From Haladaptatus paucihalophilus DX253 (GTDB taxonomy: Archaea > Halobacteriota > Halobacteria > Halobacteriales > Haladaptataceae): 64,000 nucleotides of DNA. The translations under genes and the position numbers were made by a program. This document shows, piece by piece, positions 2,005 through 9,304 of this stretch. The stretch is from positions 2,381,734 to 2,445,733 of the forward strand of contig NZ_AQXI01000001.1 of assembly GCF_000376445.1 (NCBI RefSeq), given 5' to 3'. Each line of letters opens with the position of its first letter. The stretch's first letter is position 1. The notes beneath the pieces were generated by a model that had not been told where the DNA came from, made no database searches, and was given only the letters and a program-made list of their open reading frames with translations.

Positions 2005-2113
2005 CCGCCGGCAGACGATACCCATCGAGCAACCGAGAATCGTCGAGTAGTCGGTGACTGCCGGGTCGTTTCGAGTCCGTTAAGTGCGTTCGATAAGGAG
2101 TACCGGACTAACT

Positions 2114-2168
2114 GGGCGATGGAGTCCGCCTTCCCCAACCGCCGAACGCGTCGGCTGATGACTCCTTT
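2114..2168 (+). promoter_or_regulatory. Fluoride riboswitch (crcB motif)
   Basis: The RNA matches the crcB/fluoride aptamer. GGCG (2115-2118) pairs with CGCC (2127-2130). GGAGTC (2121-2126) pairs over long range with GACTCC (2160-2165). A short CCGCC-GAACGC-GTCGG hairpin and the hallmark CTGATGACTCC follow. It ends about 15 bases before the crcB start codon and is followed by TTTT. Family knowledge: fluoride binding turns on downstream fluoride exporters. The short distance to the ATG would allow either translation control or transcription attenuation; the sequence does not decide between them. Confidence 0.9.
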
Positions 2169-2183
2169 TCGAGAGCGACAGAT

Positions 2184-8318: not shown

Positions 8319-8434
8319 CGCTCGTGAATCGTTGTTTCGTTAGAAAGCGCCCGAGGCGGGATTTGAACCCGCGTCACAACCGTGACAGGGTTGTATGATG
8401 GGCCACTACACCACCCGGGCCTTCGACGCATCTT
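8319..8434. repeat. Left copy of 116-bp direct repeat containing tRNA-Asp
   Basis: This segment matches 9189-9304 at 115 of 116 positions; the only mismatch is at 8337/9207. It covers the whole tRNA-Asp gene plus 29 bases on its 3' side and 14 bases on its 5' side. Identity stops sharply at both edges, so the duplication is recent or kept uniform by gene conversion. The repeat period is 870 bp. Confidence 0.93.
8348..8420 (-). tRNA. tRNA-Asp (GTC), downstream copy
   Basis: This 73-base gene on the minus strand has acceptor stem GCCCGGG/CTCGGGC, anticodon loop CTGTCAC within a CAACC/GGTTG stem (anticodon GTC, Asp), and T-arm CGGGTTCAAATCCCG. The discriminator base is G, as expected for tRNA-Asp. 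CCA is not encoded. A TATA-like CTTAATAAG lies about 30 bases upstream. It is identical to the copy at 9218-9290. Confidence 0.97.
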
Positions 8435-9188: not shown

Positions 9189-9304
9189 CGCTCGTGAATC
9201 GTTGTTCCGTTAGAAAGCGCCCGAGGCGGGATTTGAACCCGCGTCACAACCGTGACAGGGTTGTATGATGGGCCACTACACCACCCGGGCCTTCGACGCA
9301 TCTT
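9189..9304. repeat. Right copy of 116-bp direct repeat containing tRNA-Asp
   Basis: This is the partner of 8319-8434, differing at one base. The 754 bp between the two copies carry only the endonuclease gene and the short tRNA-like relic, so one repeat plus spacer forms an 870-bp unit. Confidence 0.93.
9218..9290 (-). tRNA. tRNA-Asp (GTC), upstream copy
   Basis: This has the same 73-base sequence as 8348-8420 and anticodon GTC. Its promoter side (9305 onward) differs from that of the other copy but still has a TTAAG element about 35 bases upstream. In the direction of transcription it comes first, followed by the endonuclease gene and the second tRNA-Asp. Confidence 0.97.

Follow-up and report, generated by a model that had tools for sequence, protein, structure and literature searches.

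The crcB gene pair of Haladaptatus paucihalophilus DX253 is preceded by a fluoride riboswitch, which probably lies in a leader of about 75 nt and acts as an ON switch, whereby translation would be controlled by masking of the crcB start site, a mechanism that is taken from the haloarchaeal group. Within the stretch of 64,000 nucleotides that was analyzed as a whole (here called the window), comparison with the Rfam covariance model confirmed, as far as sequence criteria reach, that the element is a genuine fluoride riboswitch and thus a new locus of an already known class. For the haloarchaea class-wide, we lean, with a little less assurance, towards a translational switch that works without a Shine-Dalgarno site and uses lineage-specific complementary segments, together with a C41 subfamily in the Natrialbaceae that is missed by the Rfam threshold.

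The Aptamer and Its Gene Context

The search with RF01734 (fluoride riboswitch) yielded a match directly upstream of crcB, with an E-value of 6.4e-10 when the whole window was searched and of 1.0e-11 when the whole genome was searched (Table 1). In the RF01734 alignment, all pairs of P1, P3, and the six-pair pseudoknot are standard and none is missing. Both helices and the CTGATGACTCC core of the crcB aptamer are therefore present as given in the preliminary description, and the Infernal search that it had proposed gave a score above the gathering score. We take A2119, U2120, and G2121 to be A6-U7-G8 of the fluoride site in crystal-structure numbering, and positions 2158-2160 and 2166 presumably correspond to A40-U41-G42 and U48; with this assignment, all of these ion-site core bases are kept at the window. 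By analogy with the family, the aptamer would be expected to bind fluoride. The spacer between the last conserved base (2166) and the crcB ATG (2184) comprises 17 nt, and the 15 bases stated previously are obtained when counting starts from 2168. The probability that the element is a chance resemblance or an Rfam false positive is practically negligible: the match is full length and lies 13 bits over the Rfam threshold, crcB follows directly downstream of the aptamer, and the covariation among relatives (see below) completes a set of observations by which this explanation is already refuted.

The aptamer sits in the presumed 5' leader of two genes that both match PF02537, as expected from the CrcB pair described before, and the start of crcB2 overlaps the stop of crcB1 (ATGA). 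The haloarchaeal host that had been proposed from the letters alone is borne out by crcB1, which is 95% identical to crcB1 of Haladaptatus sp. DYF46. A second aptamer of the same genome (L002; contig C5, 59579-59647; 39.1 bits) likewise precedes a crcB gene and also has CUCCUUUUC after its core; the 115-kb contig on which it is located is possibly a plasmid. As a separate observation, the window contains two tRNA genes (8348-8420 and 9218-9290 (-)), which are about 870 bases apart and have the same Rfam score and identical sequence.

Table 1. Features of the crcB leader and genes in the window, and loci of the C41 variant in relatives.
Feature	Position	Strand	Basis or detail
TATA-like element TTAAGT, presumed core promoter	2080..2085	+	about 30 nt upstream of aptamer; from the A+T peak
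Expected transcription start region	2106..2111	+	about 25 nt past TTAAGT
Fluoride riboswitch aptamer	2106..2174	+	RF01734 (Rfam covariance model), 47.1 bits, gathering score 34
P1 hairpin	2115..2130 (2115-2118 with 2127-2130)	+	RF01734 alignment
Pseudoknot 5' strand	2121..2126 (partner 2160-2165)	+	six standard pairs
P3 hairpin	2141..2155 (2141-2145 with 2151-2155)	+	RF01734 alignment; helix 3 of the covariation set
Conserved 3' core CUGAUGACUCCU	2155..2166	+	presumed A40 = 2158, U41 = 2159, U48 = 2166; pseudoknot 3' strand 2160-2165
Candidate fluoride-free hairpin, exclusive with P3	2150..2179 (2150-2153/2176-2179, 2155-2156/2174-2175, 2159-2161/2169-2171)	+	local fold, weak
crcB1, fluoride channel subunit, 130 aa	2184..2576	+	Pfam PF02537, 1e-18
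crcB2, fluoride channel subunit, 120 aa	2573..2935	+	Pfam PF02537, 5.6e-26; NCBIfam TIGR00494 above cut-off
C41 variant aptamers (CUGACGGUCCC), Natrialbaceae crcB leaders	L035-L069 and L105-L131		

Promoter and Leader

When 47 non-redundant haloarchaeal upstream regions were aligned at the aptamer, their A+T content peaked at -36 to -30 relative to it. An archaeal TATA element with a transcription start 5-10 nt before P1 would fit such a peak. This promoter-like signal points upstream of the aptamer and not to a start inside or after it, so that the most likely transcription start is located a few bases ahead of the aptamer. Since the A+T peak lies at a fixed distance before the aptamer, the crcB mRNA would carry a leader of about 75 nt, and the TATA-like signal at this distance in the 47 relatives lends support to the leader of at least 70 nt that the preliminary description had called for. 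A 34-nt block around TTAAGT is identical in Haladaptatus sp. DYF46, and the DNA farther upstream differs.

Distribution and Covariation in Haloarchaea

RF01734 matches at E<=1e-3 were obtained in 66 of the 391 haloarchaeal genomes, with 34 over the Rfam threshold. A model built on 37 haloarchaeal aptamers matched 112 of the 391 genomes at E<=1e-4, whereby the weakest of these matches may be chance or decayed copies. The named relatives with an aptamer include Halogeometricum, Haloprofundus, Halococcus, Halalkalicoccus, Halorussus, Halarchaeum, Haloarcula, and many Natrialbaceae. Among the searched members of the same family, a congener and eight others had no aptamer, and the distribution is therefore patchy. 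Decaying aptamers were seen in front of intact crcB genes at six loci (L104, L157, L166, L120, L124, and L125), which suggests, at the sequence level, a loss of the riboswitch in several lineages.

For the analysis of covariation, 37 distinct haloarchaeal aptamers were used and long P3 loops were trimmed. Standard pairs occur in 98.6% of the cells of this set, compared to 92.5% in shuffles and 31-59% in slid controls. The pseudoknot is paired in 100% of the cells and includes two pairs with two-sided compensatory changes; pair 10-54 is seen as GC, AU, GU, and CG, and pair 12-52 as CG and UA. Furthermore, pair 4 of P1 co-varies between G-C and A-U among relatives. The covariation over these 37 aptamers shows, on comparative grounds, that selection maintains the pseudoknotted aptamer in haloarchaea.

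The C41 Variant of the Natrialbaceae

In 32 of the 66 segmented loci, nearly all of them from Natrialbaceae (genera Natrinema, Natronorubrum, Natrialba, Natronococcus, and Halopiger), U41 is replaced by C. The C41 type has the pseudoknot GGGGCC/GGUCCC and P3 insertions of up to several tens of nt, and most of these aptamers score below the Rfam threshold, typically at 25-31 bits. In the Bacillus cereus switch, a U41A exchange abolishes the response (PMC11077080). C41 was present in none of the 26 methanogen-type loci of the same phylum whose printed sequences were read; an automatic C41 call in L255 was rejected as a mis-registered match, the core of which reads TAATGA. Several methanogen-type genomes were seen to carry 3-8 copies of the fluoride aptamer.

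Proposed Masking of the Start Site in the Haloarchaeal Group

Our model for the output step starts from the 3' part of the aptamer. Without fluoride, the 3' strand of P3 together with CUGAUGA would cover the crcB start site by pairing with the nucleotides directly upstream of the AUG. With rising fluoride, in the presence of Mg2+, the pseudoknotted aptamer would close, and by keeping P3, the pseudoknot, and the A40-U48 pair in place, fluoride would free the start site. Expression of crcB at high fluoride would make this a translational ON switch.

The predicted pairing of the last 6 nt before the ATG with the 3' 17 nt of the aptamer has a mean energy of -5.76 kcal/mol, compared to -2.96 kcal/mol for 31 haloarchaeal crcB genes that lack the riboswitch (p 1.2e-7, n=31), whereby the energy model applies to 37 C and ordinary (low) salt and does not represent molar KCl, and the p-values serve as guides, as the loci are related by descent (those of the C41 type share ancestry) and the non-redundant counts are not fully independent. 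The pairing signal peaks close to the ATG. Watson-Crick runs of at least 5 were present in 42% of the riboswitch loci, compared to 9% of the controls and 8% of the shuffles, and eight held-out non-redundant loci gave p 0.004 versus controls and p 0.008 versus shuffles. The complementary segments vary by lineage and comprise GGCUGAUG/CAUCAGCC (a clear case; L003, and L179 from Halorussus aquaticus), GAUGAC/GUCAUC with the compensated form GACGAC/GUCGUC in a congener (L019, L046), GACUC/GAGUC (L005), and GGCUG/CAGCC. Among C41-type loci, 25 of 31 have CAGC[CT] before the crcB ATG, versus 1 of 98 starts of other long ORFs in that DNA. The aptamer segments that are most used for pairing with the pre-ATG bases are the P3 3' strand and CUGA, and therefore the predicted pairing excludes P3 as well as the A40-U48 linchpin. 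A full-leader ensemble pairing test over all loci was borderline (p 0.05). When linkers were exchanged among the loci to test for specificity, no signal was obtained (mean p 0.51), and none is expected because the 3' strand of the aptamer hardly varies. From these comparisons we infer translational ON control by start-site masking for the haloarchaea as a group.

The linkers themselves bear on two other ways in which the output could be achieved. The distance from C47, the last base of the pseudoknot, to the ATG is 11-21 nt in 37 of the 39 non-redundant loci, which leaves no room for a terminator. Control at the level of transcription, whereby polymerase would stop without fluoride at the U-rich CUCCUUUUC (2162-2170) in an archaeal style that needs no classical hairpin, and fluoride would prevent this stop, is nevertheless only rather unlikely: CUCCUUUU follows straight after the pseudoknot in the window, in the C5 copy, and in a few relatives, and for many family members an overlap between the motif and a predicted terminator is described (PMC2864571). 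However, a U4 tract was found in just 5 of the 39 non-redundant loci, the C41 type has CCCUG in place of the U tract, and a hairpin with a U-run does not fit into the space before the ATG. At the window the U4 is present, but there is no terminator hairpin outside the aptamer.

Masking of a Shine-Dalgarno site, as hinted by non-halophilic archaeal members of the family, we consider very improbable here. A Shine-Dalgarno-like 5-mer occurs in 1 of the 39 non-redundant haloarchaeal linkers, near the shuffled rate of 1.1%, so that there is no Shine-Dalgarno site to mask; the window linker TTTTCGAGAGCGACAGAT is devoid of such a site, and no GGAGGUGA-like site was found between 2166 and 2184. What speaks for this kind of masking comes from elsewhere, namely from AAGGUGGAGGUC at an extra upstream riboswitch in Halogeometricum pallidum-type loci (L032, L033) and from the methanogen-type loci L245, L249, L256, L264, and L266, where GGAGGUG-like stretches about 10-15 nt past the aptamer suggest Shine-Dalgarno masking outside the haloarchaea. 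On the basis of the 39 non-redundant linkers, U-tract termination and Shine-Dalgarno masking were both set aside for the group.

In Halogeometricum pallidum (L032 ~1510-1802; L033; L167 ~503-560), the extra upstream fluoride riboswitch, which carries the Shine-Dalgarno-like site, is followed by a protein of 68 aa that appears to have two hydrophobic segments and gave no Pfam match, and a second riboswitch then precedes crcB.

The Output Step at the Window

The same analyses gave no signal for the window's own copy. The duplex between the pre-ATG bases and the aptamer yielded p 0.18, the predicted pre-ATG pairing fell below that of the shuffles, and the whole-leader fold had no excess stability (z +0.9). 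A window-specific OFF hairpin (2150-2179) was considered and rejected, including its apparent conservation in DYF46: it is no better than chance, as 82% of the linkers in the shuffled set fold equally well or better, and its conservation is uninformative because 24 of 42 single substitutions preserve the hairpin. By prediction, P3 (-6.1) is also the more stable of the two compared to this candidate (-4.8). As the masking test fails at the window, the mechanism is carried over from the group, and a masking helix at this copy is assumed only by analogy. The question of how such a switch works in haloarchaea, which had been left open in the preliminary description, receives a comparative answer for the class as regards the lack of Shine-Dalgarno sites, and this answer is not firm for the window copy.

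It might also be that the aptamer is a relic, which folds but controls nothing at the window. Decayed copies do exist among relatives (L104, L157, L166), and a switching helix of the window's own is not detectable. Against this, every conserved position of the aptamer is intact, a comparison of the window with Haladaptatus sp. DYF46 shows hardly any change in promoter, aptamer, and linker although the DNA farther upstream is different, and the genome holds two intact copies, so we regard a relic as clearly unlikely. Start-site masking, taken over from the group, is the reading that we prefer for the window.

Relation to Known Systems and Implications

The window element shares P1, P3, the pseudoknot, A6-U7-G8, A40, U41, G42, U48, and the position before crcB with the RF01734 class, whereas it differs by a short spacer without terminator, an archaeal promoter, and the lack of a Shine-Dalgarno site. 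With the crcB riboswitch of B. cereus it has in common the aptamer, the pseudoknot, and the A40-U48 linchpin pair (PMC11077080). The B. cereus switch acts through an intrinsic terminator, by which the pseudoknot is disrupted (PMC11077080); unlike this, the competing segment proposed for haloarchaea lies next to the AUG, and its main partners would be the P3 3' strand and CUGA.

A study of 2010 already described the motif from both bacteria and archaea (PMC2864571), and a fluoride riboswitch of Thermococcus kodakarensis has already been tested (Speed et al., 2018, as cited in PMC8241225 and PMC11077080). As far as these citing accounts go, the earlier remark that the class is mostly studied in bacteria has to be qualified. 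In 2021, the Thermococcus riboswitch was the sole natural archaeal one that had been tested experimentally (PMC8241225). It resembles the window element in being archaeal and tied to fluoride export and is reported in the citing papers to be translational (PMC8241225, PMC11077080); the two differ in that T. kodakarensis is a hyperthermophile and in that the window element lacks a Shine-Dalgarno site. For haloarchaea, many leaderless mRNAs are described and Shine-Dalgarno sites are not strictly needed (PMC8241225). No paper on a haloarchaeal fluoride riboswitch was found in the open literature, which is weak evidence of absence, as subscription papers were mostly outside the scope of the search.

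The switch class itself is well known, and the interest lies in the Shine-Dalgarno-free output at the level of the group and in the C41 subfamily. The latter presents a test of how much change the fluoride site tolerates without loss of function. The riboswitch family, with its occurrence in about one quarter of the searched haloarchaeal genomes, offers a ready test of how an RNA switch controls translation when a Shine-Dalgarno site is lacking and KCl is at molar concentration, and the riboswitch would provide an inducible element for haloarchaeal genetics.
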